A stretch of 64,000 nt of DNA from Cupriavidus oxalaticus. Its GTDB lineage: Bacteria; Pseudomonadota; Gammaproteobacteria; Burkholderiales; Burkholderiaceae. The stretch spans positions 2,542,001 through 2,606,000 of the forward strand of contig NZ_CP038635.1 in assembly GCF_004768545.1 (NCBI RefSeq), in the 5' to 3' direction. The position numbers and the translations under genes are program-made. Shown here piece by piece: positions 13,461-33,978 of the stretch. Each line of letters begins with the position of its first letter. The first letter of the stretch is position 1. A model generated the notes under the pieces. That model was not told the origin of the DNA and ran no database searches. It saw only the letters and a list, made by a program, of their open reading frames with translations.

Positions 13461-13477
13461 CTGGCACGCGCCTTGCT
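13461..13477 (+). promoter_or_regulatory. Sigma-54 (-24/-12) promoter for peptide gene 1
   Basis: The sequence CTGGCACGCGCCTTGCT fits the consensus YTGGCACGNNNNTTGCW at every fixed position, with GG and GC ten bases apart. It lies 52 bp upstream of the start of the double-glycine peptide gene at 13529. The activator is probably the sigma-54 regulator encoded at 14710–16062. Confidence 0.85.
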
Positions 13478-13528
13478 GTATTCCGGTACCGCGCCGGCAC
13501 CAAGCCGCCACTAACCGGAGACAGAAAT

Positions 13529-13822
13529 ATGGCCACCCTCGCTATCCACGATCTTGCCAGCTGCCGCGAACTTGCTTCCGACACCATGGCCCGCGTGCGC
13601 GGTGCCGGCGGGCAGTGGGTGTTCGGGTGGATCCGCCCGTTCGTGCCTTCATCGCCATTGCCGGCCGGCGCGGTGTTCAACTTTTACGAGATCAATTACA
13701 GCTTCTATGCTGATCAGATGAACAACCAGTTCCAGAACATCGATATCCGCAACAACGCGCCCAACTCCAATATCAGCGTCCAGGGCGACCAGGGCGCAAG
13801 GAACGACGGCCGCCTGGTCTGA
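13529..13822 (+). CDS. Double-glycine leader peptide 1 (97 residues)
   Basis: A small precursor with leader MATLAIHDLASCRELASDTM followed by ARVRGAGG, so C39 cleavage is expected after residue 28. The 69-residue core is aromatic at first (QWVFGWIRPFVP) and then Asn/Gln-rich (NNQFQNIDIRNNAPNSN). It has no cysteine, so lanthionine or disulfide maturation is unlikely in the core. GGAG sits upstream of the ATG at 13529, and a sigma-54 promoter precedes it. The leader matches six other small genes at 26 and 32 kb. The PP2C gene follows 81 bp later. Its biological role is unknown. Confidence 0.8.
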   Translation: MATLAIHDLASCRELASDTMARVRGAGGQWVFGWIRPFVPSSPLPAGAVFNFYEINYSFYADQMNNQFQNIDIRNNAPNSNISVQGDQGARNDGRLV

Positions 13823-13903
13823 GCGAGCGTCGTGGCACGCCCCGGCGCGACGGGGCAAGAATGGGGCAATAAAGGGGCGCGCGATGCGGAGCGGAGGCTA
13901 GAT

Positions 13904-14680
13904 TTGGGTTTCGATTCGCACTTCCAGTGGACCTCGGCGGCCTGTACCGACGTCGGCCGCGTACGCGAACGCAACGAGGATGCGTGCCTGGACCTGCCCG
14001 CGCAGCAGCTGTGGGCGGTCGCCGACGGCATGGGAGGTCACGCCGTCGGCGACTTCGCCAGCCAGGCCGTGGTCAAGGCGCTGGCCGCGCTGCCGCCGCA
14101 GCCGCTGCTGGAAGACCGGATGGAAGCCACGCGCGCGGCGATGCAGGGGGTTAACCTGGCGCTGGTCGACGAAGCCGCGCGGCTGGGGGTGCGCTGCATC
14201 GGCAGCACGGTGGTGGTGCTGCTGGCCGGCGACCGGCGCTGCGGCTGCCTGTGGGCGGGCGACAGCCGGCTGTACCGGCTGCGCGGCGGCGAGCTGGTGC
14301 GGCTGACGCGCGACCACAACCAGGTCGAGCGCCTGCTGGCGCGCGGACTGATCACGCCCGAGCAGGCGCGCCACCATCCCGCGCAGAACACCATCACGCG
14401 CGCCGTCGGCGCCGCGGCGACGCTGGCGCCGGAGCAGCTGCTGACCGAAGTTGCCGATGGCGACGTCTTCCTGCTGTGCAGCGACGGCCTGAGCAATGAG
14501 GTCGACGACCCCGACATCGCCGCGGTGCTGGCGCAACAGGATCCGCCGCAAGCCGCGCAGACGCTGCTGCAGATGGCGCTCGATGCCGGCGGGCGCGACA
14601 ACATCTCGGTGGTGGTGATCCGCGCTGCCGATCCGTACGGCTCGGACAAGACGCTGGTCAATCCCGAGCTGGACACCTGA
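13904..14680 (+). CDS. PP2C-family Ser/Thr protein phosphatase
   Basis: A 258-residue metal-dependent phosphatase of the bacterial PP2C (Stp/PstP) type, expected to reverse phosphorylation by the locus kinase. All family motifs are visible: DVGRVRERNEDA, VADGMGGHAVGD, GSTVVVLL, WAGDSRLYRLR, NTITRAVGA, LLCSDGLSNEVDD and GGRDNISVVVI. I choose a TTG start at 13904 because a GGAGG Shine-Dalgarno lies six bases upstream and the first residues then match the family; a GTG at 13832 would add 24 poor residues. The C-terminus has SDKTLVNPELDT, similar to motifs in the kinase and FHA protein. It may be co-transcribed with peptide 1. Confidence 0.88.
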   Translation: MGFDSHFQWTSAACTDVGRVRERNEDACLDLPAQQLWAVADGMGGHAVGDFASQAVVKALAALPPQPLLEDRMEATRAAMQGVNLALVDEAARLGVRCIGSTVVVLLAGDRRCGCLWAGDSRLYRLRGGELVRLTRDHNQVERLLARGLITPEQARHHPAQNTITRAVGAAATLAPEQLLTEVADGDVFLLCSDGLSNEVDDPDIAAVLAQQDPPQAAQTLLQMALDAGGRDNISVVVIRAADPYGSDKTLVNPELDT

Positions 14681-14709
14681 GCAGCGCCCCTACTCCTTAC
14701 TACCCCTTG

Positions 14710-16062
14710 CTAACCCTTGCTCCCGTCAGCCTGCCGGCTGGCGCGGAAATCCTTGGAATGGATGCCGTGCTTCTTCAGCAGCATCTGCACGTGCGAGCGG
14801 TTCATGTCGAAGCGCCGCGCCAGCTCGGCGACGGTGCCGCCGACTTCCTGCAGCCCGCGCTCCAGGAAGGCGCGCTCGGCTTCGTCGCTGGCCGCGCGCT
14901 TGGCCTCGCTGAGCGAGGTGGGCATGGCGATGTCGGCCCCCGCTCCCCCTGCTGTTGCCGTCCCCACCACCGCCAGCGCCGCCGGCCTGGGCCGGATGTC
15001 CTGCGGCAGCTGCGCCAGGTCGGCGGTGTCGCCAGCCAGGCAGGAAAGCCGGTACATCAGGTTGCGCAGCTCGCGGATATTGCCCGGGTAGTCATAGTGC
15101 AGCAGGAAGTCGCGCAGCCGCGGCGTCAGCCTGACCGGCGCGCGCTTGAGCATGCTGGCGGCCTCGTCGCTGAAGTAGGACACCAGCAGCGGGATCTCGT
15201 CGTGCCGCTCGCGCAGCGCGGGCAGGCTGACATGGATTACGCTCAGGCGGTAGAACAGGTCTTCGCGGAAGGTGCCGGCCTCGCTCATCTTGCGCAGGTC
15301 CTTGTTGGTGGCGGCGACGATGCGCGCATCGACCGAGATAATCTCGTCCGAGCCCACGCGCTGGATCTCGTGCGCTTCCAGCACGCGCAGCAGCTTGACC
15401 TGCCCCGTCAGCGGCAGCTCGCCAATCTCGTCGAGGAAGATGGTGCCCGTATGCGCGCTTTCGAACTTGCCGCGCCGGTCGTTGCTGGCGCCGGTGAACG
15501 CGCCCTTCTTGTGGCCGAACAGCTCGGACTCGAGCAGGCTGTCGGGGATCGCGCCGCAGTTGACCGAGATGAACGGCTTGTCGGTGCGCGAACCGTTGGC
15601 GTGGATCACCTTGGCCATCAGTTCCTTGCCGGTGCCGCTCTCGCCGTCGATCAGCACCGGCAGGTCGGTCGGCGCGGCTTTCTCGGCGATTTCCAGCGCT
15701 TCGAGCAGCTTGGGGTTGTCGCCGAAGGTACCCCCGAAGATAAAGCTGCGCTCCATCAGCGCCTGGCGCCGCTCGCGCGGCATGCGTTCGACCTCCTGCT
15801 GCGGCGGCGCGTTCTTGGCCGCGCTGTCGGCCCCGGTTTCGGCAGAAGACGCTGCCTGCACGAAGCGTTCCTTGTGCGACAGCCCCATGACCTCGTCGCG
15901 CAGCGTGGTGGCCTGCTTGAGCAGCTTCTCGATCTCGGGCCGGTCGAGGCGCGACGCCCAGCGCAGCGTCGAGCGCAGGATCTCGATCTTCTCGATCAGG
16001 CCGGCGAACGACACCGGCGAGGTGACCGAGGCGGGGGTGGCACCCTGGTTGTATAGCTTCAT
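14710..16062 (-). CDS. Sigma-54-dependent transcriptional activator (bEBP) of the peptide locus
   Basis: A 450-residue AAA+ enhancer-binding protein. The central domain has Walker A GESGTGKE (140–147), GAFTGA (187–192) for sigma-54 contact, LFLDEIGE-type Walker B (IFLDEIGELP) and FREDLFYRL. The C-terminal Fis-type helix-turn-helix lies at about 400–435 (VAELARRFDMNRSHVQML). The first 100 residues hold no receiver, GAF or PAS domain, only helical sequence, so the input signal is unclear. Its ATG overlaps the exporter stop (ATGA), so it is the last gene of the five-gene secretion operon. It probably activates the -24/-12 promoters at 13461, 26651 and 31736. Confidence 0.92.
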   Translation of the reverse strand: MKLYNQGATPASVTSPVSFAGLIEKIEILRSTLRWASRLDRPEIEKLLKQATTLRDEVMGLSHKERFVQAASSAETGADSAAKNAPPQQEVERMPRERRQALMERSFIFGGTFGDNPKLLEALEIAEKAAPTDLPVLIDGESGTGKELMAKVIHANGSRTDKPFISVNCGAIPDSLLESELFGHKKGAFTGASNDRRGKFESAHTGTIFLDEIGELPLTGQVKLLRVLEAHEIQRVGSDEIISVDARIVAATNKDLRKMSEAGTFREDLFYRLSVIHVSLPALRERHDEIPLLVSYFSDEAASMLKRAPVRLTPRLRDFLLHYDYPGNIRELRNLMYRLSCLAGDTADLAQLPQDIRPRPAALAVVGTATAGGAGADIAMPTSLSEAKRAASDEAERAFLERGLQEVGGTVAELARRFDMNRSHVQMLLKKHGIHSKDFRASRQADGSKG

Positions 16063-19000
16063 GCTGCGCTCAGTTGCTTCTGCACCAGTTGGTAATACAT
16101 GCCCTTGCGTTCCAGCAGCTCTTCATGCCGGCCCTGCTCGACGATCGCGCCTTCATACAGCACCAGGATCTTGTCGGCCTGCATGATGGTGCTGAGGCGG
16201 TGCGCGATGATGACCGCGGTGCGCCCGCGCAGGATCTCCTGCATGTTCGCCAGGATGTTGCTCTCGGACTGCGTGTCGAGCGCCGAGGTCGCTTCGTCGA
16301 ACACCAGCAGCCGCGGGTCGTGGTACAGCGCGCGCGCGATGCACAGCCGCTGGATCTGCCCGCCCGACAACCCCATGCCGCGCTCGCCCACCACCTGCTC
16401 GTAGCCGAGCGGCAGCTTGCTGATAAAGGCGTGGGCATCGGCCATGCGCGCCACTTCCTCGATGCGGCGCCGGTCCGGGCTGTCGTCGCCGCAGGCGATG
16501 TTCTCGGCGATGGTGCCCGAGAACAGCAGGTTGGACTGCATCACATAGCCGACCTGCGCGCGGTAGAACGCCGCGTCGATCACGTTGAGGTCGTAGCCGT
16601 CCACCGACATCGAGCCCTCGGTCGGCTTGTAGAAGCCCACCAGCAGCTTGGCCAGCGTGGTCTTGCCCGAGCCGCTGCGCCCGACGATGGCGACCATCTC
16701 GCCCGGCCGGATGGTAAAGCTGATGTTCTCCAGCACGTAGGGCGTGTCCTCGCCGCCATAGCGGAAGTACAGATCCTTCATCACGATCTCGCCCTGCAGG
16801 TCGGGCAGCATCACGCGCGACAGCACGTCCTGCGGCTTCTGCTCCGGCTCCAGGTCGAGCACGTCGCCGAGCCGCTCCATCGCCACGCCGGCATCGTTGA
16901 GCTGGCCCCACAGCGCCACCAGTCCCATCAGCGGCGCCAGCACGCTGCCCATGAAGGCGTTGAAGGCGATCAGCTGGCCGATGGTCAGCTCGCGCTCGAG
17001 CACCAGCGTCGCCCCCACCCACAGCACCGCGATGGTGGTCGCGGCATTGAGCAGCTGGCTCGCCAGCCCCACCAGGATATGGAAAGCCTGCGCCTTGTAT
17101 TGCGCTTCCAGCGCCTTGGTGTACTTGCGCTCCCAGCGCAGCCGCACCGGCCGTTCGATGCCCATGCCCTTGACGGTCTCCGCGCCGCCCAGCGTTTCCA
17201 TCAGGTAGGCCTTGGCATCGGTCGACGCGGCAAAGACCTCGCGCGCATAGGTCTTGACCCTGGGCGTCACCACCACCGTCAGCGCCGCGATCGGGATCAC
17301 GAAGGCGATCAGCAGCAGCGTCAGCTTGACGTTGTAGAGGAACATGATGGTGAAGTAGATAAACACCATCAGCAGGTTCAGCGCCGTGGTCACCGTCGAC
17401 TCGGTCAGGAAGGCGCGGATGGTCTGGTTCTCCTGGAAGCGCGCGAAGATGTCGCCGGTCTTGCGCTTGGCGAAGAACGACAGCGGCAGCGACAGCGTGT
17501 GCTTGAAGAAGTGCGACATCATGGCGAAGTCCATGTTGCGCACCATGAAGTTGGCCAGGTACGCGCGGATCGTCGACATCAGCTGCGAGAACACGTTGGA
17601 GATGATCAGCCCCACGATCAGCAGGTGCAGCAGCCCCACGTTCTGGTGCACCACCACGCCGTCGAGGATGTTCTGGATGATCAGCGGCGGCACCACGCCC
17701 AGCATCTGGATCACGAAGGTCGCCAGGAACAGGTGCGCCAGGATCTTCTTGTACGGCGCCAGGTAGCCGATGAAGCGCAGCCACGGCGAGCGCTGCACCG
17801 ACAGCTGCGTCATGCTCTCGCCCGGCGAGAACAGCAGGCAGGTGCCGCTCCAGCCGCGCTCGAACTCCTCCGCGCTCATCTTGCGGAAGCCGATGGCGGG
17901 ATCGGCCACCCACACCCAGCGCGACGAGATGCCGTACACCACCACGTAGTGGTAGCCCTCCCAGTGCACGATGAACGGCAGCTCGAAGCCCATCAGCGAG
18001 TCGCGCGTGCATTGCACGCCGCGCGTGGTGAAGCCGAGCGATTCACCGGCGCGCGCCAGGCTGTCGAGCGTGGCGCCCTGCGTGGTCACGTTGGCCAGTT
18101 CGCGCAGCTTGCCCAGCGTCATCGGGATGCCGTAGTGCCGGCAGATCATTGCCAGGCAGGCCGCGCCGCAGTCCATTTCCTCGGCCTGCTCGACCAGGCC
18201 GAAGCGGCGGATCAGCTTCTCGCCCAGTTCGGGCCTGGAATGCAGGTCCAGCAGCACGGGACGCTTGCGCCGCTCGGCCAGCTTCTTCTGCCGATGCAGC
18301 TCGCGGTCGAGCGCGCGGATGCGCTCCTCCAGCACCTCGCGCAGGCGCGGGTTGCGCTCCAGGATCAGCTGCACGGTCTTCTCGGGAATGACCAGCAGGC
18401 GCACGTCGGTCTCGGCGACGGCCGCTGCCAGCTGCTCCTGCCGCATCACGCAGGCGCGCTCGCCGAAGATGTCGCCCTGCCCAAGTGTCGCCAGGGGGAA
18501 CTCGCTGCCTTCTTCGCTGCGCACCACGCGCACGGTGCCCTGGCGCACCACGTACAGGCGCCGGTCCTCGCGCCCGTCCTGCTTCAGGATTTCCTTGCCG
18601 GCGCTGACGCGCTTGACGCCCACGCTGCGCACGGCGTCGGCCAGTTCCTGCTTGTCGAGCTTGCCGCGCAGGTCGAACAGCCGCGCGACAAAGCCGCCGG
18701 CGGAACTGATCGCGACATAGCTGGTGACAAAGGCCAGCGCGGCCGGGTTGCCGGCGACCACCGGCTCGGCCACGCTGCGCGGGATCATCAGCAGCTCGGT
18801 CTTTCCCGAGGCGCGCACCGACGACTCGTGCCGGTACTCGCGCAGCAGCGCGATATCGGCAAAGACCTCGCCAACCTTGCGCACGCCCATGCTGATTTCC
18901 TTGCCGTGTTCCTCGTTGAACACGCGCACGGATCCCGACTTGACGATAAACAGGCCGGGCGCCGCATCGCCGGCATTGCAGACGGTATCGCCAAAGCCGA

Positions 19001-19199
19001 AGGTCAGCACCTGCGCGGCCTCGGCCAGGCGCGACACTTCCTCCGGCGTCAGCACCGACAGGATTTCGACGCCGGCCAGGAACGTGGCCAGCGCGGATCC
19101 GCCCTCGGGCCGTTCCGGTGCTGTCGGCGCTGTCGGTGCGGCCGGCGCAGCGGCAGCGGCGGCGCCTTCGCCAGACTCGCTAGCGGGCTTCGATGACAT
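16059..19199 (-). CDS. cNMP-binding/C39 peptidase/ABC exporter fusion for double-glycine peptides
   Basis: A 1046-residue inner-membrane exporter that should cut leaders after GG and pump the cores out through HlyD and an outer-membrane channel. Order: an Ala/Pro-rich start; cNMP-binding-like domain 1 (about 35–160); domain 2 (about 165–295), whose pocket looks degenerate; C39 peptidase (about 330–460) with Cys344 in EEMDCGAACL, His417 in GYHYVVVYG and Asp433 in VADPAIGF; six membrane helices (about 480–760); and an NBD with Walker A GRSGSGKT (840–847), LSGGQ (944–948) and LLVFDE (964–969). The catalytic triad is intact, unlike the degenerate CLD of HlyB. It overlaps ppiC by 20 bp and the regulator by 4 bp. 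Confidence 0.94.
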   Translation of the reverse strand: MSSKPASESGEGAAAAAAPAAPTAPTAPERPEGGSALATFLAGVEILSVLTPEEVSRLAEAAQVLTFGFGDTVCNAGDAAPGLFIVKSGSVRVFNEEHGKEISMGVRKVGEVFADIALLREYRHESSVRASGKTELLMIPRSVAEPVVAGNPAALAFVTSYVAISSAGGFVARLFDLRGKLDKQELADAVRSVGVKRVSAGKEILKQDGREDRRLYVVRQGTVRVVRSEEGSEFPLATLGQGDIFGERACVMRQEQLAAAVAETDVRLLVIPEKTVQLILERNPRLREVLEERIRALDRELHRQKKLAERRKRPVLLDLHSRPELGEKLIRRFGLVEQAEEMDCGAACLAMICRHYGIPMTLGKLRELANVTTQGATLDSLARAGESLGFTTRGVQCTRDSLMGFELPFIVHWEGYHYVVVYGISSRWVWVADPAIGFRKMSAEEFERGWSGTCLLFSPGESMTQLSVQRSPWLRFIGYLAPYKKILAHLFLATFVIQMLGVVPPLIIQNILDGVVVHQNVGLLHLLIVGLIISNVFSQLMSTIRAYLANFMVRNMDFAMMSHFFKHTLSLPLSFFAKRKTGDIFARFQENQTIRAFLTESTVTTALNLLMVFIYFTIMFLYNVKLTLLLIAFVIPIAALTVVVTPRVKTYAREVFAASTDAKAYLMETLGGAETVKGMGIERPVRLRWERKYTKALEAQYKAQAFHILVGLASQLLNAATTIAVLWVGATLVLERELTIGQLIAFNAFMGSVLAPLMGLVALWGQLNDAGVAMERLGDVLDLEPEQKPQDVLSRVMLPDLQGEIVMKDLYFRYGGEDTPYVLENISFTIRPGEMVAIVGRSGSGKTTLAKLLVGFYKPTEGSMSVDGYDLNVIDAAFYRAQVGYVMQSNLLFSGTIAENIACGDDSPDRRRIEEVARMADAHAFISKLPLGYEQVVGERGMGLSGGQIQRLCIARALYHDPRLLVFDEATSALDTQSESNILANMQEILRGRTAVIIAHRLSTIMQADKILVLYEGAIVEQGRHEELLERKGMYYQLVQKQLSAA

Positions 19200-19932
19200 G
19201 TTCCTGCGCCCTGCCCATCAGCCAGTCTTCGCGCAGCAGGCGCCGCACTTCCACCGCAACCTCGGTGTCGAGCGTGGCGGGATGCTTGGCGCGCACCAGG
19301 AAGACTTCGAAGAAAGAGCGGTCCGGCGCTGGGAACGGCCCCAGCAGGTCGCCCGGCTCCGCGTTGAATACCTTGGCCTCGATATCGGTCTTGAGCGAGC
19401 CGCGCAGCACCTTGCCGATCGCGCCGCCGTGCTCGCGCGTGTCGGCGATCGAATGCTCGCGCGCCATGTCGGCGAACGCGTCCGGATCGTCCTGCAGGTA
19501 AGAGATCAGCTCCTTGGCCTTGCCTTCGCTGTCGACCACGATATGGCTGACCTCGATGCTGTCGAAGCGCGGCGAGTTCAGCGCAAAGTACTCCTGCACC
19601 GCGGCGTCGCTGCAGACCTGCTCCATCATCCGCTCCTGGTACAGGTTGTCGGTGATGAACGCCTCGAACTCGTCGAGGCTGACATTGAGCGCATCGAGGT
19701 AGTGGTTCATGTCGGCGGCGCGGTGCAGCCCCTGCACGCGGCGGAACTGGTCGGCGCGCTCCTGGATTTCTTCGGGCGTGACCACCATGCCCTGACGCTT
19801 CGCGGCGTGCACCGTCAGCTTGTCGCGCACCATCTGCTCGACCAGACCTTCGAACTGCCCGGTCAGCTTGAGCAGCCGAACGAATTCCTCGACGCCGAGC
19901 ACCTCGTCGTCGATACGGACAATGCCAGTCAT
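19180..19932 (-). CDS. Parvulin-type peptidylprolyl isomerase (SurA/PpiC-like), no signal peptide
   Basis: A 250-residue protein with a SurA-N-like helical region (residues about 10–125) followed by a parvulin rotamase domain (about 130–230: SHIVVDSEGKAKEL, FADMAREHSIADT, HGGAIGKV). There is no signal peptide or membrane helix, so it probably acts in the cytoplasm, perhaps keeping precursors unfolded for the exporter. The ATG at 19932 has AAGGAG seven bases upstream. It overlaps the exporter start by 20 bp. Such isomerases occur in other C39 peptide-export clusters, which supports a chaperone role, but this is inference. Confidence 0.85.
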   Translation of the reverse strand: MTGIVRIDDEVLGVEEFVRLLKLTGQFEGLVEQMVRDKLTVHAAKRQGMVVTPEEIQERADQFRRVQGLHRAADMNHYLDALNVSLDEFEAFITDNLYQERMMEQVCSDAAVQEYFALNSPRFDSIEVSHIVVDSEGKAKELISYLQDDPDAFADMAREHSIADTREHGGAIGKVLRGSLKTDIEAKVFNAEPGDLLGPFPAPDRSFFEVFLVRAKHPATLDTEVAVEVRRLLREDWLMGRAQEHVIEAR

Positions 19933-20025
19933 GTCTAGGCTCCTTTTGACGGCCCTATGCGTTAGCACGGGCATCCGGATTGGCTGTTCCTGTATTCCCC
20001 CGGCTGCTGCCGGTGCTGCCGGCGG

Positions 20026-21405
20026 TTACCCCGCCACCTCGCGGAAGGGGTCGAGCCCCAGGTCGATCAGGCGGCGCTCGCGCACCACGATCTCCGCCGT
20101 GGCGGTCATGCCATAGCGCAACGGATACTTGTTGTCGGCCACGGTGTAGTAGTCGCGCGCCAGGCGCACCCTGCCCTCGTAGACCGGCTGCTTGTCGGGG
20201 CCCGGCTTGGTCGCGGGCGAAATGAATTCCAGCGTGCCTTCGATGATCCCGTAGCGCTGGTACGGGAAGGCGCTGAATTTGAGCTTGACCAGCAGCCCCT
20301 CGCGCAGGAAGGCGCGGTCGCGCTCTGCAATGACGATCTTGACCACCGGGCGCGCATCCTTGGGCGCGATCCCGCCCAGCGGCGTGTTGGCCTGCACCTT
20401 GTCGCCGCGCTGGGTGGAGGTGACATCGGTGATCACGCCCGACACCGGCGCCAGGATCAGCAGGAAATTGTCCTTGTCGATATTCTCGAAGCGGATGCGC
20501 GCGGCGGCGTCCGCCACCAGCCGCGCGGTCTGTACCTGCAGCCGCAGCTTGTCTTCGGTGCTGGCGATCTCGCGCAGCGCCGCGTCGTACTGCACGCGCA
20601 GCCCGGCCAGGTCCTGCCCGCTGCTTTCGAGCAGCGCGCTGGCCTGGGTCATCTCGCGGGACAGCCGGGCATCAAGCTCGCTCAGCCGCGACTGCGCCAC
20701 GCGCAGGTTGTTCTCGGCGTCCTGCGCCGCGGCGCGCTTGGCATCGAGCTGCGACTGCGACACGCCGCCGCCGCCGGGCAGCGCCAGCAGGCGCGCATAG
20801 CGGTCCTGCTCCTGGCGCGCAAACTCGCGCGCGCGCCGGGCGTTTTCCAGGTTGCTGCGCGCCTCCTGCAGCTGCGCGCGCTGTTCCTCGGCCAGCCGCG
20901 TGGTGCCCTGGGCAAGGCGGTTCTCGTGCTGGCGCGTGGCCACGTCGATCTGCTGCTTGAGCGCGTTGGCGCGGCGTTCCATCAGCGCCTTTTTCTCCGG
21001 GAACTGCTTCCATTCGCGCTCGGAATCCTCCAGCTTGAGCTGCGCTTCCAGCGCATTGGCGGCGGCCTCGATCGCGCCGCGCGCGTTCAGCCGCGCCAGC
21101 ACGTCATCCTTGGACACCGGCTGGCCTTCGGCGACGTACAGGTCGGCCAGCTCGCCGTCGACAGGGGCATAGAAGCGCCGCACTTCCGATTCGGGTGCCA
21201 GCGTGCCTTGCGCGGTGACGATGACATCGGCATGGCCGACGAAGGACCACACCAGCCCGCATACCACCAGCGCAAACGTGGTGACGATGGTCAGCATGCC
21301 CAGCCGCGACGGTTCGGCGGTAAGCAGGCCGATACCCTCGGCGCTGTGGTCTTCGAGCGCTTCGGACAGCGGCTTCAGGCCGGCCTGGCGGGAATCGTCT
21401 TTCAT
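20026..21405 (-). CDS. HlyD-family periplasmic adaptor of the C39 exporter
   Basis: A 459-residue membrane fusion protein linking the ABC exporter to an outer-membrane factor. It has one N-terminal transmembrane helix (about 36–58: LGMLTIVTTFALVVCGLVW), a biotinyl-lipoyl-like half motif (VIVTAQGTLAPES, ELADLYVAEGQPV), a long alpha-hairpin of about 110–300 rich in Gln/Arg/Glu, and a beta-barrel region (LAPVSGVITDV, VYEGRVRLARDYY). The start overlaps the FHA gene stop by four bases (ATGA). The hairpin is long, as expected for contact with a TolC-type partner. Confidence 0.92.
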   Translation of the reverse strand: MKDDSRQAGLKPLSEALEDHSAEGIGLLTAEPSRLGMLTIVTTFALVVCGLVWSFVGHADVIVTAQGTLAPESEVRRFYAPVDGELADLYVAEGQPVSKDDVLARLNARGAIEAAANALEAQLKLEDSEREWKQFPEKKALMERRANALKQQIDVATRQHENRLAQGTTRLAEEQRAQLQEARSNLENARRAREFARQEQDRYARLLALPGGGGVSQSQLDAKRAAAQDAENNLRVAQSRLSELDARLSREMTQASALLESSGQDLAGLRVQYDAALREIASTEDKLRLQVQTARLVADAAARIRFENIDKDNFLLILAPVSGVITDVTSTQRGDKVQANTPLGGIAPKDARPVVKIVIAERDRAFLREGLLVKLKFSAFPYQRYGIIEGTLEFISPATKPGPDKQPVYEGRVRLARDYYTVADNKYPLRYGMTATAEIVVRERRLIDLGLDPFREVAG

Positions 21406-25981: not shown

Positions 25982-26245
25982 TCAACGATAGATATTGTTG
26001 CTGGCGTTCTGGTTGGTATCCACATGCGAACGGACATGGTCAAGGAAGGCCGAGCCGTTGCCATTCAGGTTGGTGACGGTCTGCATCTGCGCGATTTCCT
26101 GCGTGGCGGTGATGCTGCTGTCTAGCTTGAACTTGATCGGGGCGTAGACCGCCGCGAAGGGCATGTAGGCGAGACCGCCGCGCACGGCTTGCATGCGCTT
26201 GCTGTCGAGGGTTTCGGTGGCGGCCAGGTCTTTGATGGTCAGCAT
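25982..26245 (-). CDS. Double-glycine leader peptide 2 (87 residues)
   Basis: The 24-residue leader MLTIKDLAATETLDSKRMQA plus VRGG precedes a 63-residue core that starts LAYMPFAAVYAPIKF and ends TNQNASNNIYR. The core has no cysteine. It closely resembles peptide 5, which also holds the second position in a pair. CGGAGAAC lies before the ATG at 26245. It follows peptide 3 by 57 bp on the same strand and should share its sigma-54 promoter. Confidence 0.85.
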   Translation of the reverse strand: MLTIKDLAATETLDSKRMQAVRGGLAYMPFAAVYAPIKFKLDSSITATQEIAQMQTVTNLNGNGSAFLDHVRSHVDTNQNASNNIYR

Positions 26246-26302: not shown

Positions 26303-26572
26303 TCAGCCGTAGATGTTGTTGGTGGCGTTCTGGTTGGTGTGCACGTTCGACTTGACGTGGTCCAGGAACGCCGAACCGTTGCCGTTCATGTTGGTGACGT
26401 TCTGCAGTTGCGCGATTTCCTGCGTGGCGGTGATGCTCTTGTCGATCGACAGCTTCAGCGGCATGTAGGCGGCGACGAACGGGACATAGGCGAAGCCGCC
26501 GCGGACGGCGTGCATGCGCTTCTGGTCCAGGGTGTCGATGGTGGTCAGGTCGTTGATGGTCAGCGTGGTCAT
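26303..26572 (-). CDS. Double-glycine leader peptide 3 (89 residues)
   Basis: The 26-residue leader MTTLTINDLTTIDTLDQKRM plus HAVRGG precedes a 63-residue core starting FAYVPFVAAYMPLKLSIDKS and ending in HTNQNATNNIYG. It is the near twin of peptide 4 at 31832. AGGAG lies nine bases before the ATG at 26572; upstream in-frame codons would add only a Pro/His-rich stretch. It is the first gene of a two-gene unit with peptide 2 and lies 78 bp after a sigma-54 promoter. Confidence 0.88.
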   Translation of the reverse strand: MTTLTINDLTTIDTLDQKRMHAVRGGFAYVPFVAAYMPLKLSIDKSITATQEIAQLQNVTNMNGNGSAFLDHVKSNVHTNQNATNNIYG

Positions 26573-26650: not shown

Positions 26651-26666
26651 GCAGGGAGCGTGCCAG
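26651..26666 (-). promoter_or_regulatory. Sigma-54 (-24/-12) promoter for peptides 3 and 2
   Basis: On the minus strand CTGGCACGCTCCCTGC has GG and GC exactly ten bases apart and matches the -24 half perfectly; the -12 half has CTGC for TTGC. About 50 bp from this element onward is identical to the promoter at 31736. Confidence 0.8.
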
Positions 26667-26885: not shown

Positions 26886-26904
26886 CGGTCACATGGGGGG
26901 CGTT

Positions 26905-27339
26905 TTACTTTACGTAGATTGTGATTCGCTTTGAATACACGGGCGGATTTGTGGGGATGTGCTTGTCATCCCCCATGATCAGCTGCAGCGTATGCTTGCC
27001 GGGCGGCAGTTCCAGCATGGTTTCAGTCTCTCCCGCGCCGAAATGCAGGTGGTTCCGGTCGTTCGGGATTTCCTTGTCCATTGGCGGCAGCTCGACGTCG
27101 ATCAGCAAGTGGTGGTGCCCGGTGTTGGCATACTTCACATCCTTTGGCGCCACCCCCATGTTGCGCAATCCAAACCATACCTTGAACGGCTTGCCGGCAG
27201 GCATCACCTGCCCGTCATTGGGCCAGCCGATATAGAGATAGGCATTCGGCGGCGCCGGCGTGGATCCGCCCTGGGCTGCGAACGACACCAGCACGCTGGC
27301 AGCGAGCGCAGCGGCAGCAAGTAGTCTGGATCTGGACAT
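26905..27339 (-). CDS. DUF4399 periplasmic protein, copy A (144 residues)
   Basis: An exported protein with a signal peptide of about 25 residues and a single DUF4399 beta-sandwich-like domain. Its signature is GHHHLLIDVELPP, then IPNDRNHLHFGAGETE and LPPGKHTLQLIMGDDKHIP. The function of the family is unknown; the clustered histidines suggest metal binding. The ATG at 27339 has GAGAGGG upstream; an earlier in-frame codon adds only Arg-rich residues. It follows a paralogue by 45 bp, and the two form a transcription unit. Confidence 0.85.
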   Translation of the reverse strand: MSRSRLLAAAALAASVLVSFAAQGGSTPAPPNAYLYIGWPNDGQVMPAGKPFKVWFGLRNMGVAPKDVKYANTGHHHLLIDVELPPMDKEIPNDRNHLHFGAGETETMLELPPGKHTLQLIMGDDKHIPTNPPVYSKRITIYVK

Positions 27340-27384
27340 AACCCTCTCCCGTGGTGGCCGTGCGATGCCACGCCGCACGCAACG

Positions 27385-27810
27385 CTAGCGCACGGTGATC
27401 GTGATCTTCTTCGAATAGATCGGCGGCTCGAACGGTATGTGCTTGGCGTCGCCCATCAGCAGTTGCAAAGTGTGCTTGCCCGGCGGCAGTTCGATGCGCG
27501 CATCGGTCTCGCCCGCGCCGAAGTGCAGGTGGTTCCGGTCGTTCGGGATCTCCTTATCCAGCGGCGGCAGCTCGACGTCGATCAACAGGTGGTGGTGGCC
27601 GCAGCGTGGCAGCTCGATGCCTTTGGGGCACACACCCATGTTGCGCAGCCCCATGCGCACCCAGAACTTGCCGCCGGTGATCACCGTGCCGTCGTGCGGC
27701 CAGATGATGTAGGCCTCGGCGTTGGGTGGCGCGGCTGTCGACAGCGACAGCGATGGCGCGGCCGCGAACACGGCGGCCGCCGCCAGGCGGAACAGGAATC
27801 GTCTGGACAT
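27385..27810 (-). CDS. DUF4399 periplasmic protein, copy B (141 residues)
   Basis: Paralogue of the next gene, with the same signal peptide layout and DUF4399 core (CGHHHLLIDVELPPLDKEIP, NDRNHLHFGAGETD, GKHTLQLLMGDAKHIP). It differs by two cysteines (VCPKGIELPRCGHHH) flanking the segment before the histidine cluster. A GGAGGG ribosome site precedes the ATG at 27810. It is divergent from the FGE-fold gene. Whether it acts with the peptide exporter or is only a neighbour is unclear. Confidence 0.85.
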   Translation of the reverse strand: MSRRFLFRLAAAAVFAAAPSLSLSTAAPPNAEAYIIWPHDGTVITGGKFWVRMGLRNMGVCPKGIELPRCGHHHLLIDVELPPLDKEIPNDRNHLHFGAGETDARIELPPGKHTLQLLMGDAKHIPFEPPIYSKKITITVR

Positions 27811-28091
27811 ACGCCCTCCCCGGAGATCTGCCCGAAACCCGATCACGTTGTCCCGTCAGCCCATTCTTGTTGCTTGTTGGCCAGCGCTCGGCGATTCGTC
27901 ATTCAGGTTAGGACGCAAGCCCGGAAAATGCGACCCCGGCGAAGCGGGGCGGCTTTGCAATGCTTGGCCCGGGACACAGGCGCTGTGCTATCTTGAAGCA
28001 AGCCGGTCTAGGTCTCGGCAACACCACAAAGCGTCCGCAACGCATGTGCCGGCATGCAATCGGGTTCGCTGCCGTCCGACGAGGTGTGAAG

Positions 28092-29306: not shown

Positions 29307-29356
29307 CGTGCGCGCACGAAGCCCGTCGGTGAAGCGCAAGCCAACGCGTGCGCCCG

Positions 29357-31405
29357 TCAGCGCGCACGCGTCGAGATCTGCACTACGTCCGCGCTGATGC
29401 GGTCGTTGCCATAAGTGCGCGCCATCTGCGCCAGCGGCTTTTCCAGCGCGCGCAGGTAATCCTGCTGCCCTTCCACCTCCGTGCGGCGCCCTTCGAACAG
29501 CGGCACCGGCGTCGTCAGCAGCACCACCAGCTCGGTGCCGAAGGGGGCCGACACAACCCAGGCGCCACCTTCGCCGATCGTCGCCTGGTGCCCTGCCGGA
29601 GCCTGGTGGGCGGACACCCGCGAGCTGGGCACCATGTGCGCGACCTTGCCGTCGGCCGCGAAGTAATCGACGTAGACATAGGACTCCTGCGCCGGCGTAC
29701 GCAGCTCCAGCACCAGCGGCGAGCCATCGGTCAGCTGCGAGCTCTTGCCACGCAACCGCAACGACGAGGCGGTGCCGCCTTCGCGATTGCCTGACCAGTA
29801 CGGCGCGACCAGTTTCGCCACCTCGCACTTATCATCCGCAAGCGGCTGCGTCTCGACGGTCACGCCCTTCACGCCGGGCAACTTCGCCAACTGCTCGCGC
29901 AGGCGCGCCGGCCCCACGCTTTCGGCCAGGAAGCCGCGCACGCGCAGCGTATGGGCCTTTTCGCTGGCGTTGAGCAGCGAACACGGCACGGCGGCGAGCG
30001 CCTTGGTAACCTCGGCCATGGAAAACACCGCTGGGCGCGCCGGCGCTGGCGCTTCTGGCGGCGCGGGAGGCGTGACAGGCTGCGTGGGGGGCGCCTCCGC
30101 ACGCGTCTCGGCCGGCGCCGTGGCGGGCTGCCGCTGCGCATGCCAGGCGTAGTAGCCGATCGCCGACACCCCGGCGAGCACGGCGGCGACACCGCCGATC
30201 ATCATCGGCGAACGCTGCGACGGCGTGGTCATCGGCACCGCGCTCATGCCATGCAGGAAACGCGCGACGGTTGGCGTGCGCGTGGCGCGATTCAGCGACA
30301 GTGCCTCGCGCATCGTTTTCCACTGCGTGCGGCTGAGCTGCGGCGGCTGCGGCGGCTTGACGCCCGCCTCGCGCGCCTGGTTGGCCGACATGCGCTGGTA
30401 CGGGTGCTTGCCTGTGATCAGTTCGTAGGTCACGCAGGCCAGCGCGTAGATATCGTCGCGCGGGTCTGGCTCGCGGTGCTCGAACATCTCCGGGCTCGCA
30501 TACGCCGGCGTCATGCCGCCCAGCGAGCCGGGATCGAACACGGTGCGGTCGGACTCGTCAGCCGGCGGCAGGAAGCCGCGCGCGATGCCGAAGTCGATCA
30601 CCTTGACCTCGCCGCTGTCGGTCAGGAACACGTTGGCAGGCTTGAAGTCGCAGTGCACGAAGCCGCGCTCGTGCGCATAGGCCAGTGCATTGCCCATGCC
30701 GTTGATGATGGGCATGGCGCGCGCCATCGGCATGCCGCTGAAGCCGGGCGCCTTCAGCACGTGGTTGAGCGAATTGCCCGACAGGTATTCCATGGTCAGG
30801 AAGACCACCGGCCCGTCGCGGTCGAAGTCGTAAACGGTAACGATATTCCGGTGCGCCAGCGTCTGCGCCTTGCGCGCCTCGCGCTGCAGCGCGATCAGCG
30901 ACTTGGGATGGCCGCTGAACTGCAGGTTCAGCACCTTGATGGCGATATAGGGCTTGCGGTCGGACGCCTCCAGCTTGCGCAGGTCGAGCGCCTTGTACAC
31001 CGTGCCCATGCCGCCCACGCCCAGGCACTCTTCCAGCACGAAGCGGCCGTTCAGCGTATCGCCCACGCCCTTGGCATGTGCCGCCGGCGGCAAGGTGCCG
31101 GCCTCGGGTGAGGTCGCGTAGAGCGAACCTGTCTGCGGCCCGGTGGCCATGCGCGTGGCTTCGGTAACGCCCTCGTACTGGGTCGCACTGCGGCGCTCGA
31201 TGCGCCGCATCACTTCGGCATAGACCGCGGGCGGGAACGGGAATCGGGTGTTTTCCTCGATGACCACGCGCGCCGCCTGGCTGGGCGAAGTGGGGTCCTG
31301 GGCCAGCGCAGTCTCGAACGACGCAACGAATTCGTCGTCGGACAGTCCGCCGCTCTGGAACTTTCGGATCAGGTCTTTAAGACTGGCCACGGCTCGCCCT
31401 GACAT
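29357..31405 (-). CDS. Transmembrane Ser/Thr protein kinase with DUF4384 domain
   Basis: A 682-residue Hanks-type kinase. A helical N-terminal region (1–110) precedes the kinase domain (about 120–385) with GVGGMG (129–134), Lys157 in AIKVLN, catalytic HCDFKPANV (251–259) and DFG (271–273). The HCD in place of HRD makes it a non-RD kinase. The activation segment carries DRTVF (Thr288). A transmembrane helix (401–421) leads to an outside part with a Pro-rich linker and a DUF4384 domain (about 550–640). I use the ATG at 31405; no clear ribosome site is seen. It likely phosphorylates the FHA protein and other locus proteins, opposed by the PP2C phosphatase. Confidence 0.9.
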   Translation of the reverse strand: MSGRAVASLKDLIRKFQSGGLSDDEFVASFETALAQDPTSPSQAARVVIEENTRFPFPPAVYAEVMRRIERRSATQYEGVTEATRMATGPQTGSLYATSPEAGTLPPAAHAKGVGDTLNGRFVLEECLGVGGMGTVYKALDLRKLEASDRKPYIAIKVLNLQFSGHPKSLIALQREARKAQTLAHRNIVTVYDFDRDGPVVFLTMEYLSGNSLNHVLKAPGFSGMPMARAMPIINGMGNALAYAHERGFVHCDFKPANVFLTDSGEVKVIDFGIARGFLPPADESDRTVFDPGSLGGMTPAYASPEMFEHREPDPRDDIYALACVTYELITGKHPYQRMSANQAREAGVKPPQPPQLSRTQWKTMREALSLNRATRTPTVARFLHGMSAVPMTTPSQRSPMMIGGVAAVLAGVSAIGYYAWHAQRQPATAPAETRAEAPPTQPVTPPAPPEAPAPARPAVFSMAEVTKALAAVPCSLLNASEKAHTLRVRGFLAESVGPARLREQLAKLPGVKGVTVETQPLADDKCEVAKLVAPYWSGNREGGTASSLRLRGKSSQLTDGSPLVLELRTPAQESYVYVDYFAADGKVAHMVPSSRVSAHQAPAGHQATIGEGGAWVVSAPFGTELVVLLTTPVPLFEGRRTEVEGQQDYLRALEKPLAQMARTYGNDRISADVVQISTRAR

Positions 31406-31681
31406 GGTTTTCGGGCAGGGTTGCCCGCGCTGTGTGCAGTGCGAAATTGCCCTGTCTTCGATGGATACTAGTGCGCACCCATGGCATGCGCAATCCGTGC
31501 GCTTGCGCTGCGCTGCCGGCACGCAACGCCGTGCGCGTGCGGCGCCGGCATTCGTCGGCCGCGATCGGCGCCGACTGTCACTGCGGGGCCAACACCGGCG
31601 CCACACATGTTGGCCGGGCACCGCCATCCAGTGGCCCGCAATGGCGCACACGACCGGTGCCGGAAAGCCGACATGCCCGTC

Positions 31682-31706
31682 AAAAACCCCTTGTTTTCAG
31701 GCATTT
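31682..31706 (+). promoter_or_regulatory. Conserved block upstream of the peptide 4 promoter (candidate activator site)
   Basis: Matches 26696–26720 (opposite strand) at 22 of 25 positions, with the core CCCTTGTTTTCAGGC. It ends 29 bp before the -24 element, the same spacing as in the other copy. The 31406–31681 stretch before it holds no gene I can support. Confidence 0.45.
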
Positions 31707-31735
31707 GCGCGCGGCGCGCGCAGCCGGCTGCGGCG

Positions 31736-31751
31736 CTGGCACGCTCCCTGC
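31736..31751 (+). promoter_or_regulatory. Sigma-54 (-24/-12) promoter for peptides 4 and 5
   Basis: CTGGCACGCTCCCTGC, identical to the element at 26651–26666. The expected start is about 12 bp downstream, giving a leader of about 70 bases before the ATG at 31832. Confidence 0.8.
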
Positions 31752-31831
31752 GATATCCCAACCGAGCGCGACACCAACCCGATGCTCGAATCCAAACCCA
31801 AACGCAATACCTTCCGCCACTGGAGACCATC

Positions 31832-32101
31832 ATGACCACGCTGACCATCAAGGACCTGTCCTCCGCCGAAACCCTGGACCGCAAGGGCATGCAAGCCGTG
31901 CGCGGCGGCATGACCTACATGCCGTTCGCCGCGGTGTACATGCCGCTGAAGCTGTCGATCGACAAGAGCATCACCGCCACGCAGGAAATCGCGCAAATGC
32001 AGTCTGTCACCAACCTGAACGGCAACGGCTCCGCGTTCCTGGACCACGTCAAGTCGAACGTGCACACCAACCAGAACGCCACCAACAACATCTACGGCTG
32101 A
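31832..32101 (+). CDS. Double-glycine leader peptide 4 (89 residues)
   Basis: Leader MTTLTIKDLSSAETLDRKGM plus QAVRGG (26 residues), then a 63-residue core starting MTYMPFAAVYMPLKLSIDKS and ending HTNQNATNNIYG. The last 50 residues differ from peptide 3 at only a few positions, and the first 20 core residues vary more. GGAG lies eight bases before the ATG at 31832. It heads a unit with peptide 5. Confidence 0.88.
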   Translation: MTTLTIKDLSSAETLDRKGMQAVRGGMTYMPFAAVYMPLKLSIDKSITATQEIAQMQSVTNLNGNGSAFLDHVKSNVHTNQNATNNIYG

Positions 32102-32151
32102 GCCCCGCGCCATAGCTGCCCACTCACACATACCGAGACCCGGAGACCATC

Positions 32152-32421
32152 ATGACCACGCTGACCATCAAAGACCTGTCCGCCGCCGAAACCCTCGACA
32201 GCAAGCGCATGCACGCCGTGCGCGGCGGCCTCGCCTACCTGCCCTTCGCCGCCGTCTACGCGCCGATCAAGCTGGCGTTCGACGGCAGCATCGACGCCAA
32301 GCAGTCGATCGCACAGATGCAGACCGTTACCAACCTGAACGGCAACGGCTCGGCCTTCCTGGATCACGTCAAGTCGAACGTGCACACCAACCAGAACGCC
32401 ACCAACAACATCTACGGCTGA
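32152..32421 (+). CDS. Double-glycine leader peptide 5 (89 residues)
   Basis: Leader MTTLTIKDLSAAETLDSKRM plus HAVRGG, then a core starting LAYLPFAAVYAPIKLAFDGS and ending HTNQNATNNIYG. It is closest to peptide 2. CGGAG precedes the ATG. The 50-bp gap after peptide 4 begins with the same 22 bases as the gap between peptides 3 and 2, so the two pairs are duplicates in opposite orientation. Confidence 0.88.
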   Translation: MTTLTIKDLSAAETLDSKRMHAVRGGLAYLPFAAVYAPIKLAFDGSIDAKQSIAQMQTVTNLNGNGSAFLDHVKSNVHTNQNATNNIYG

Positions 32422-32512
32422 TCCAGCCACGGCCGCGGCGCGCGGTGGCCATATGCAAGCCCCGCGCCAGCCGCTCCGGAACCCTCATCGAATCACCTGA
32501 AGGAGCGCCATC

Positions 32513-32785
32513 ATGTCATCCATCATCGTTCGCGACCTCGCCGTCAGCAAAGACCTCGACCGTGCCTCGCTGCGCGCCGTGCGCGGCGGCAATTCCTGGC
32601 TCACCCGCGGTGTCGGCAACGTCGGCCCGCTGGCCAACGTGACCGTCAACGTCAACCAGAACATCGCCCAGCTGCAGAGCATCAATGTCAACACGCTCAA
32701 CAACAGCTTCGTCGGCCACGGCGCAGGCCCTGTGAGCGTCGATGTCAACCCGTCGCAATGGGCCGGCAACTTCGCCGCGGTCTGA
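32513..32785 (+). CDS. Double-glycine leader peptide 6 (90 residues)
   Basis: Leader MSSIIVRDLAVSKDLDRASL plus RAVRGG, then a 64-residue core unlike the others: NSWLTRGVGNVGPLANVTVN followed by VNQNIAQLQSINVNTLNN and a Gly/Val/Asn tail. The NQNIAQLQSINVNTLN part recalls the TQEIAQMQ.VTNLNGN stretch of peptides 2–5, so the cores are related. AAGGAG lies before the ATG at 32513. No promoter was found in the 91-bp gap, so it is probably transcribed with peptides 4 and 5. Confidence 0.82.
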   Translation: MSSIIVRDLAVSKDLDRASLRAVRGGNSWLTRGVGNVGPLANVTVNVNQNIAQLQSINVNTLNNSFVGHGAGPVSVDVNPSQWAGNFAAV

Positions 32786-32900
32786 GCGCCTGGGTAATAC
32801 GGGGAGCGGCGGCCGGCCCGCGAGTGCACCGCGGGCCGCCGCCTATACTGAAGCGGTCCCGCGGCCGCATGGCCGTGGCGCCGCATTACCGGAGACAGCC

Positions 32901-33143
32901 ATGGCAGTAATCGTCATCAAGGATTTGTCCGACAGCGTGGATCTCGACCGGCAGGCCATGACCGCCATCCTGGGCGGCGGGCGCACCGCCGGCGGCCAGG
33001 GATGGCATGGGCTGCGGCGCAGCGGACCGGCGCGCATCGTCGATTACCCGGGCGGCCTGCCCGGCAATCGCCACGTGATGCCGCGGGAAGTCCCGCTGGG
33101 CCGGTTGCCCCGAAAACCTGCAGACAAGGGGACGGGCGGCTAA
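32901..33143 (+). CDS. Double-glycine leader peptide 7 (80 residues)
   Basis: Leader MAVIVIKDLSDSVDLDRQAM plus TAILGG fits the family, but the core of about 54 residues is different: basic, Gly/Pro/Arg-rich (GGQGWHGLRRSGPARIVDYP) and without the Asn-rich motif. GGAG lies eight bases before the ATG at 32901. A strong hairpin (about 32809–32842) and a TATACT hexamer (32844–32849) separate it from peptide 6, so it may have its own promoter. It could be a decayed member or a distinct product. Confidence 0.7.
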   Translation: MAVIVIKDLSDSVDLDRQAMTAILGGGRTAGGQGWHGLRRSGPARIVDYPGGLPGNRHVMPREVPLGRLPRKPADKGTGG

Positions 33144-33978
33144 GCGCGGGCGGCAACGGGTAGAGAGAAGCGGTCGATCAAATGAAAAGCCCGCCAGTCA
33201 CTGGCGGGCTTGGTTGCGGACGGGCCCGGACCTTCTCGGTCACGCGGTCAACAGTTCGGTCATTCTTTGCCAGGCAGGCTTCCCATGATTCCGCCCATGA
33301 AGCGGACGCCCATCCGGACCACCCGGAGAGTCGCAGGAAGACTGGCGCTTGGGGCAATGACCGCAATGCTTGCCGCTAGCAGTGGCGCAATGCCGCTGGA
33401 GGAGGTCAAAGCGGGAACGTTTTTCGTCCGCCCCGTGCGGGCATCCTGTGTGCTCGCGCCTCCAGTATAGGCAGGGGCCGCGGCCTTTCAACCCGGCCGG
33501 CGCCTGCGGCGCGCCAGGGTGTCGCCAGCGGCGCATGCAGGTGACGCCAGGCTGACATATCTGGTTACGTTTTCGCAGTGCAACAAAATTTTCTCACTCT
33601 GCTATAATCCGCGCCGTGAGTTTCGCAACTGTGAGATCCGCCAACCGCCCGGCACCGGCTTCACCTCAATGCCGCGGCGAATCCGCTGCCCTCCCAAGCT
33701 CTGTTTCCTCGCTGCCGGACGCCTAGTTGTTGTTTGCGCCAGCCGCCCAGCAGAACGCACCGCTCACCTGACGTCGCCTCGTCTCCGATCCTGTTGAACA
33801 GCCTGAAACCTGAGCTGTTTGCCTGCCAGGGACATGGCCGGACCGCCCAGCGGAACCAGCCAACGCCCTGCCTGCCGCCGTACTGCCAGCTGTGTCTGTC
33901 GTAACGGCCTCACCGATTGGCGCCGAAGCCTTTTTAAGACTTTGCACTGCGCCCACCCCATTCTGCGTTCGGGGTGCC
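33144..33978. other. Non-coding interval: peptide-locus terminator and long helicase leader
   Basis: No gene is supported. A terminator lies at 33187–33211. An ORF at 33297–33470 has a weak signal-like start but no ribosome site. A TATAAT at 33603–33608 in an AT-rich patch (CAACAAAATTTTCTCACTCT) is a good -10 and would give the helicase mRNA a 5' leader of about 360 bases, as is common for cold-induced DEAD-box genes. Confidence 0.6.
33187..33211. terminator. Bidirectional-type hairpin after the peptide genes
   Basis: AAGCCCGCCAG and CTGGCGGGCTT form a perfect 11-bp stem with a TCA loop. It lies 43 bp after peptide 7 and closes the locus. The T-run on the plus strand is weak. Confidence 0.65.

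Follow-up and report, generated by a model that had tools for sequence, protein, structure and literature searches.

A co-inherited C39 exporter, double-glycine leader peptides and kinase in Burkholderiaceae: a probable secretion system, perhaps for surface or matrix subunits

The whole stretch of DNA analyzed here, a 64-kb window of Cupriavidus oxalaticus (C2:2542001-2606000 of a genome of 8.0 Mb in 7 contigs), carries a locus for an ATP-binding cassette (ABC) exporter with a built-in C39 peptidase, seven small precursors whose leaders end in a double glycine (GG), and a serine/threonine kinase. Genome comparisons indicate that exporter, peptides and kinase form one conserved, co-inherited system. 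We read the locus as a type I export system timed by sigma-54 and probably gated by phosphorylation, whose peptides, rich in Asn/Gln, poor in Cys and low in charge, are most likely subunits of surface or matrix material; we assign this reading a probability of roughly 55%. It draws on the parts, their motifs, the placement of promoters and the pattern of inheritance in sequenced genomes, from which we infer cleavage of the peptides, a phospho-gate and self-assembly. The original prediction, made from the letters of this stretch, had proposed a complete cut-and-export route under sigma-54 and kinase/phosphatase/FHA control, and our results support such a route as a single co-inherited system.

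Co-inheritance was examined in 200 Burkholderiaceae genomes, the window's own included. Orthologs of the exporter occur in 56 of them (at least 1714 bits, 74–100% identity), and the next matches in this sample are generic exporters scoring at most 502 bits. The closest relatives of the window exporter are found in Cupriavidus, with 98% identity in Cupriavidus sp. LEh25. Searching the precursors for co-occurrence with the exporter had been proposed as a check on the original prediction, and such co-occurrence was found: a profile of the core of pepG, one of the seven peptide genes, matched 57 genomes, namely 56/56 exporter-bearing genomes and 1/144 exporter-less ones (G179), where the match is partial and contains a stop. 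The significance of this overlap (Fisher p ~3e-49) is inflated by shared ancestry and by a profile built beside exporters. A second profile, for the peptide class that includes pepA to pepD (pepA-D), matched 51 genomes, all of them exporter-bearing. Within the same genus, 15 of 22 genomes contain both the exporter and pepG, and the other 7 contain neither. When the order was sampled (300 genomes, own included), the exporter was recovered at E ≤ 1e-160 in only 3, all from the same family.

Among 80 genomes other than the window's own, a kinase ortholog (E ≤ 1e-70) was found in 55/55 exporter-bearing genomes versus 0/25 exporter-less genomes, the latter hand-chosen from the 144; the match is split in two pieces in G172, G159 and G136. 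In four genomes (G116, G132, G081 and G160), some 100 kb to 1 Mb separates kinase and exporter, and the kinase still adjoins pepC-like, pepE and pepF genes; the divergent neighbor of the kinase is a leader peptide in 10/10 stretches examined. The strongest argument for a joint function of kinase, peptides and exporter is that they are inherited together even where close linkage is absent. A role of the kinase as a defence gene was considered separately and rejected: its PADLOC matches are kinase families, mainly over the kinase domain, and were judged generic.

Scans with Pfam and for open reading frames (ORFs) located every part named by the original prediction at 13.5–33.1 kb. Together with a leader profile, they confirmed the seven GG-leader genes, the C39/ABC exporter, the HlyD adaptor, the NodT channel and the parvulin; Pfam likewise confirmed the sigma-54 activator, Ser/Thr kinase, PP2C phosphatase and twin-FHA protein encoded alongside. 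Two points of this inventory required correction. What had been called the locus's "own sigma-54" is a sigma-54 activator, no sigma factor being encoded there, and the inventory had omitted an FGE-fold protein and a pair of DUF4399 proteins (26905-27846). The plus-strand left end (pepG, PP2C) is followed by a minus-strand block that runs in map order from the sigma-54 activator through exporter, parvulin, HlyD, twin-FHA, NodT, pepB and pepA to the two DUF4399 genes; beyond these lie the FGE-fold gene (+), the kinase (-), pepC, pepD, pepE and pepF (+), and a DEAD-box helicase gene. The features are as follows.

13462..13476, + strand: sigma-54 -24/-12 type site TGGCACG-N4-TTGC, 67 bp upstream of pepG
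13529..13822, + strand: pepG, leader peptide with core WVFGWIxPY...NQxxNQFQ; leader end RGA-GG in the window copy
13832..14680, + strand: PP2C-type protein phosphatase (Pfam PF13672)
14710..16062, - strand: sigma-54 activator, AAA+ with GAFTGA loop (Pfam PF00158)
16059..19199, - strand: exporter of 1046 residues, with two cyclic nucleotide monophosphate (cNMP)-binding domains, then C39 peptidase, ABC membrane and ATPase domains (Pfam)
19180..19974, - strand: parvulin-type peptidyl-prolyl isomerase (Pfam PF00639)
20026..21405, - strand: HlyD-type periplasmic adaptor (Pfam PF13437)
21402..24047, - strand: twin-FHA protein, two N-terminal FHA domains (Pfam PF00498, twice)
24320..25747, - strand: NodT-type outer-membrane channel, probable start 25747 (NCBIfam TIGR01845 over cut-off; Pfam OEP)
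25982..26245, - strand: pepB, leader peptide of the major Asn/Gln-rich class
26303..26572, - strand: pepA, leader peptide of the major Asn/Gln-rich class
26651..26665, - strand: sigma-54 type site upstream of pepA, TGGCACGCTCCCTGC
26905..27378, - strand: DUF4399 protein copy 1, hydrophobic signal-like N-terminal segment (Pfam PF14347)
27385..27846, - strand: DUF4399 protein copy 2 (Pfam PF14347)
28092 (start approximate)..29306, + strand: FGE-sulfatase-fold protein, hydrophobic signal-like N-terminal segment (Pfam PF03781)
29357..31405, - strand: Ser/Thr kinase, start checked, hydrophobic segment near residue 399, C-terminal DUF4384 (Pfam PF00069, PF14326)
31737..31751, + strand: sigma-54 type site upstream of pepC
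31832..32101, + strand: pepC, leader peptide of the major class
32152..32421, + strand: pepD, leader peptide of the major class
32513..32785, + strand: pepE, leader peptide with core VNVNQNIxQxQ...LNN
32901..33143, + strand: pepF, leader peptide with short basic core and VDYP motif

A scan of named genomes yielded 269 exporter loci, of which the best 80 are treated here as the relatives; 67 of them have both flanks. They come from Cupriavidus, Paraburkholderia, Caballeronia, Trinickia, Noviherbaspirillum, Herbaspirillum, Aromatoleum and other genera; L091 is the locus of Paraburkholderia xenovorans LB400. Among the 67 full-flank loci, the sigma-54 activator and the parvulin were present in all 67, PP2C in 63, DUF4399 in 61 and FGE, whole or cut at the stretch end, in 58, and HlyD, FHA, NodT and a leader peptide were each present in 62. 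The exporter retains its C39 Cys motif, Walker A and LSGGQ each in 80/80 relatives, its HWEGYHY His motif was matched by pattern in 71/80, and the FHA motifs SRRHA and NGT are kept in 71/72.

With a C39 peptidase fused to an ABC exporter, an adaptor and an outer-membrane channel, the machine has the make-up of a peptidase-containing ABC transporter (PCAT) of type I, and GG leaders, the mark of PCAT substrates, are encoded at the exporter loci or away from them, so that the leader peptides are its likely cargo. Dedicated peptide export is, on these features, very probable. The original prediction had stated that it would be contradicted by homologous exporters consistently occurring without such small genes, and the relatives show otherwise. 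Leader-profile matches lie beside the exporter in 73/80 loci, with only short or frameshifted copies at L045 and L051, whose genomes hold 11 and 10 leader matches in all. The seven loci without a nearby match (L054, L055, L067, L078, L088, L090 and L105) sit in genomes with 3 to 21 leader matches elsewhere at E ≤ 1 (best E 9e-15 to 4e-9), some of the weaker of which may be chance.

A C39/ABC exporter with an HlyD partner is also the layout of the NHLM/NHLP clusters. The window exporter and adaptor do match TIGR03796, TIGR03794 and TIGR03797, but membership was rejected because the scores fall below the cut-offs (566.5/853.3, 72.5/156.2 and 401.9/709.4 bits, respectively). The exporter is likewise below the NCBIfam HlyB cut-off, the parvulin matches NCBIfam TIGR04500 weakly (86 of 180 bits), and none of the six peptides scanned, out of the seven, matched an NCBIfam precursor family.

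All seven window peptides share the leader pattern M..L.I.DL....LD...M.A[VI].GG. The pepG leader ends in RGA-GG in the window and in most of its closest relatives, and in GG in most others. The shared leader is more than a chance resemblance: a profile built in part from five leaders of the window, searched against the 8-Mb genome, returned the seven window genes and two others (E = 6e-14 to 1e-5). The same search gave nothing in G026 and a single match at E = 0.33 in G190, two exporter-less genomes of the same genus. The two further leader genes lie elsewhere in the genome, at C1:2060669-2060746 (L173) and C3:214259-214333 (L174), with none of the machine genes of the locus within the surrounding 8- and 7-kb stretches, and their cores are unlike the other cores. 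Both carry 10/11 sigma-54-type sites, which suggests that one exporter probably serves nine precursors. The description of the locus as self-contained therefore does not hold: two precursors are encoded in trans, and four genomes have the distant kinase-peptide islands described above.

Promoter placement separates the peptide genes from the machine genes. Sites were scored as at least 9/11 matches to TGGCACG-N4-TTGC, with GG and GC fixed, no more than 200 bp upstream, and compared with mononucleotide shuffles; genes with less than 150 bp of sequence ahead of them were left out, and machine-gene starts are first-Met approximations. A sigma-54-like site was found upstream of 58/62 pepG genes (1.2 after shuffling) and 57/79 pepA-D genes (0.7), versus 7/697 for eleven machine and accessory gene types together (10.6). 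No site precedes pepE and pepF (0/6), as would be expected if they follow pepC-D within one operon, and one of six unclassified leader candidates has one. The activator keeps its GAFTGA loop in 77/80 relatives; Pfam found no receiver domain in the window copy, in which a C-terminal helix-turn-helix-like segment was read by eye. Sites of the -24/-12 type before the peptide genes and a GAFTGA activator are the features of a sigma-54-controlled regulon, and we hold with high confidence that the peptide genes are under predicted sigma-54 control. Leader and sigma-54 site together would define the regulon.

Leader genes of the same type also form tandem arrays with VAPVTQVDAS cores in L175, L176 and L177, from the genomes of L054, L055 and L067, in which the leader profile scored 15, 21 and 15 matches, respectively, at E ≤ 1. 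Most of these arrays open with a gene that has a 9/11 sigma-54-type site, and VAPVTQVDAS-like cores occur in L076 and L182 as well.

We propose the following course of events. The locus-encoded activator, with RpoN from elsewhere, would turn on the peptide operons. Each precursor leader would dock on the C39 domain and be cut after GG, and the cores would leave via exporter, HlyD and NodT, with the parvulin helping. The kinase and PP2C may set the phosphorylation of some component, and the membrane-bound twin-FHA protein may read this phospho-mark and thereby gate assembly or export, by a logic like that of kinase, phosphatase and Fha control of type VI secretion. Once outside, the cores would most likely form a fibre- or amyloid-like material at the cell surface or within the matrix, with pepA-D as abundant subunits and pepG, pepE and pepF as special ones.

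The gate is modelled on PpkA/PppA/Fha of type VI secretion, for which the accessible part of the literature describes the same three protein kinds within one system; shared logic is likely. There are also differences, in that the trio here would serve a type I exporter and that the FHA protein extends far C-terminally past its hydrophobic segment. This segment lies near residue 360, and the ~500 residues that follow match no known family and have no convincing relative in the PDB (one match, E = 0.21, was not used). The same precedent supports a different explanation, in which kinase, PP2C and FHA regulate something else, such as a type VI system, and merely neighbor the exporter, since the accessible literature has this trio controlling type VI secretion in other bacteria. 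That the kinase accompanies the exporter without exception in the genomes compared and is flanked by a leader peptide, that FHA and PP2C persist beside the exporter in nearly all full-flank loci, and that no type VI domain occurs in 18 proteins scanned at 8.1–38.5 kb, the rest of the genome not being searched, make this explanation very improbable. Phospho-gating of export is, in our estimate, fairly probable.

A total of 157 peptide candidates was collected, excluding small ORFs that overlap machine genes unless they match a known peptide; candidates shorter than 60 residues, such as the short copies in L045 and L076, were not counted further, and a few, e.g., L094:4627, look like chance. Four classes recur: pepA-D, often in several copies, with the core motif Q-x4-Q...GNNxAF; pepG; pepE; and pepF, short and basic, with VDYP in many members. 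Searched against the genome, the pepA-D profile picks up both pepG (E = 0.003) and pepE (E = 0.02), and comparison of the pepG and pepA-D profiles gave 92%, which indicates that the pepA-D, pepG and pepE cores are mutually related. Their composition sets them apart. Asn and Gln make up 21–24%, charged residues 4–10% and Cys at most 0.3% of the pepA-D, pepG and pepE cores (for pepA-D and pepG, 21% Asn+Gln and 8–10% charged, with Cys at 0.3% in pepA-D and 0% in pepG), versus 7%, 24% and 0.8%, respectively, in the window's machine and neighbor proteins. The pepG core is constrained like its own leader (median pN 0.22 and 0.24), with a dN/dS of 0.37 over 659 pairs having dS between 0.05 and 0.9, and is thus unlike a diversifying toxin. 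Some public records name peptides of this family porin or STAS domain protein (P0002, P0059 and P0073), which looks like mis-annotation; other records call them hypothetical.

In function, the closest known systems are cyanobacterial EbfG/PteB and Caulobacter Cdz. The accessible parts of two papers on Synechococcus elongatus describe EbfG1-4 as small GG-motif proteins that need the C39 transporter PteB for secretion and are required for biofilm formation (PMC4997328, PMC9981879), with EbfG1-3 forming amyloid and EbfG4 present on the surface and in the matrix (PMC9981879, PMC4997328). The likeness, drawn from description and composition only, lies in several small GG-motif proteins served by a transporter with a C39 peptidase. 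The EbfG/PteB system differs in being cyanobacterial, and the accessible text makes no mention of a sigma-54, kinase, PP2C and FHA set. Composition, pepG conservation, the several subunit classes, the lack of a detected immunity gene and the EbfG precedent together point to a structural fate of the peptides on the surface or in the matrix, perhaps as amyloid, for which we see an even chance. A more specific picture, in which distinct leader peptides, expressed from sigma-54 promoters at scattered genome sites, pass through a single C39 exporter whose assembly is controlled by threonine phosphorylation via a membrane-spanning twin-FHA protein, and co-assemble into an amyloid-like coat as a Burkholderiaceae surface-fibre system not recognized before, is tentative.

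Exporters of the C39/ABC-HlyD kind with small GG-leader proteins classically serve bacteriocins. This layout, the several related precursors per genome and the variation of pepA-D cores between genera would all fit peptides that are surface-held or diffusible bacteriocins, acting by Cdz-like contact killing or as class II microcins, with sigma-54-controlled export. There is a precedent in Caulobacter, where, in the accessible part of the report, CdzC/D are bacteriocin-like proteins that kill on contact via a type I system, CdzC aggregates at the surface, and the system includes glycine zippers as well as a small membrane protein for immunity (PMC5380434). Cdz and the window locus have in common a type I exporter and small secreted proteins, surface aggregation having been seen for Cdz. 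They differ in that the window locus has no detected conserved small membrane gene and, judged by composition only, no enrichment of glycine, which is ordinary in the cores (6–10% versus 8%). For an immunity-like gene, seven small-ORF families were found in at least 12/90 stretches, none hydrophobic enough for a membrane helix (top median 19-residue Kyte-Doolittle mean 1.09), in a scan that masked regions under ORFs of ~180 codons or more, where a gene could be hidden. These differences and the pepG core, conserved across genera and not diversifying, make bacteriocins unlikely. The earlier suggestion, in which the peptides act as structural, signalling or contact factors and are not classic bacteriocins, agrees with this evidence and is unproven.

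Signalling was weighed as well. Small exported peptides, a linked kinase with a membrane-like segment and C-terminal DUF4384, and an activator without a detected receiver domain would suit peptides secreted as signals for neighbors or for the producer, with the kinase as sensor. Cores of 60–70 residues, in conserved classes and several similar copies, are in our judgement unusual for signals, and the scan of 18 proteins turned up no peptide-receptor family; we regard this role as quite improbable.

Several observations weigh against the proposal that the locus exports Asn/Gln-rich surface or matrix subunits. AlphaFold2 models of two cores were poor (mean pLDDT 62.1 and 51.7) and gave no confident monomer; no curlin or consistent Pfam match was found in 46 and 55 cores at E up to 5, and no PDB match of the cores at E up to 10. 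Beta-alternation is weak, with a median z of 0.27 for pepA-D, 0.64 for pepG and 1.79 for pepE (only four), and is not used for the claim. The pepF core does not share the richness in Asn/Gln, nor do the two cores encoded in trans; Cys is present in 9/79 pepA-D cores, and the pepA-D cores are far more variable between genera than pepG (mean column identity 32% versus 52%). On the side of co-inheritance, five of the 56 exporter-bearing genomes lack a pepA-D match (G016, G063, G118, G193 and G199), and two leader genes are present in G179, a draft genome of 440 contigs without the exporter. As the pepG profile derives from exporter-adjacent genes, it may miss divergent peptides in exporter-less genomes.

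Homology to curli or other amyloids by sequence was rejected, and the resemblance is compositional only: curlin repeats (PF07012) have no over-cut-off match in the genome, the best being E = 0.1 on another contig. No PHROGs (phage) family matched the five peptides scanned.

The FGE-fold protein bears on the earlier statement that the locus has no modification enzyme. This protein had been overlooked, but catalytic FGEs carry a Cys pair in a GGSW...-type C-terminal segment, and the GGSW...STRF segment contains no Cys in 16 copies from 17 stretches nor in the window copy. The protein thus probably binds rather than modifies, the catalytic Cys pair expected for FGE-type peptide maturation being absent from this segment. 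DUF4399 gene 1 keeps a GHHH motif in 67/67 copies, and one may speculate that the DUF4399 pair is chaperone-like; a weak Filamin-B match (E = 0.059) was the only structural relative of DUF4399 and was not used.

More distant exporters, 35–39% identical, were drawn from a phylum-wide sample of 299 genomes. By sequence comparison, clusters L124, L125 and L127 keep the window's gene order for sigma-54 activator, exporter, parvulin, HlyD and FHA, with weak matches for FHA. In L126 and L128, Pfam confirms FHA, and three OEP channels are encoded in L128; the names attached to close relatives of the L126 exporter include Magnetococcales and Gammaproteobacteria. L129 has no sigma-54 activator or parvulin match. 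The exporter on a Skermanella plasmid (35% identical) has an HlyD neighbor, with no FHA, sigma-54 activator or parvulin annotated within 14 kb. No leader of the window type was found in the distant clusters (0/7 stretches), and four whole genomes searched gave nothing below E = 0.2. The control module thus seems older than the peptides, since the distant clusters checked keep its parts and lack the leader. Short glycine-rich ORFs lie beside FHA-linked exporters at L126:2536-3522 and L128:2309-2620 and are possible substrates that have no recognized leader.

C39 export of GG-leader proteins, and its matrix role in cyanobacteria, are already known. In the open-licence literature, among the matches listed, we recognized no description of the sigma-54 promoter code, the co-inherited kinase/phosphatase/FHA set or the peptide families. 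If phospho-gated, this would be, to our knowledge, the first type I exporter under a kinase/phosphatase/FHA switch, and type I secretion would be joined to threonine phosphorylation. Peptides, exporter and kinase are co-inherited across Cupriavidus, Paraburkholderia, Caballeronia and relatives; if our reading is right, many soil and plant bacteria would share a secreted material or factor that has gone unstudied and has a promoter code of its own, and substrates could be predicted genome-wide from leader and sigma-54 site. The words HlyD, FHA, bacteriocin and phosphatase do not occur in the main text of PMC5979394, as far as it is accessible, and "secretion" appears only among its references.

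Two minor observations concern neighboring genes. A small protein with an HHGIYAG motif, presumably lecithin-retinol-acyltransferase-like, is conserved on the pepG/PP2C side in 21/90 stretches (e.g., L054:16070-16537). At 35994-38511 of the window, an FGE-sulfatase/DinB_2 protein adjoins a histidine-specific methyltransferase (Methyltransf_33); we take this to be an ergothioneine-type EgtB/EgtD pair, unrelated to the peptide system.

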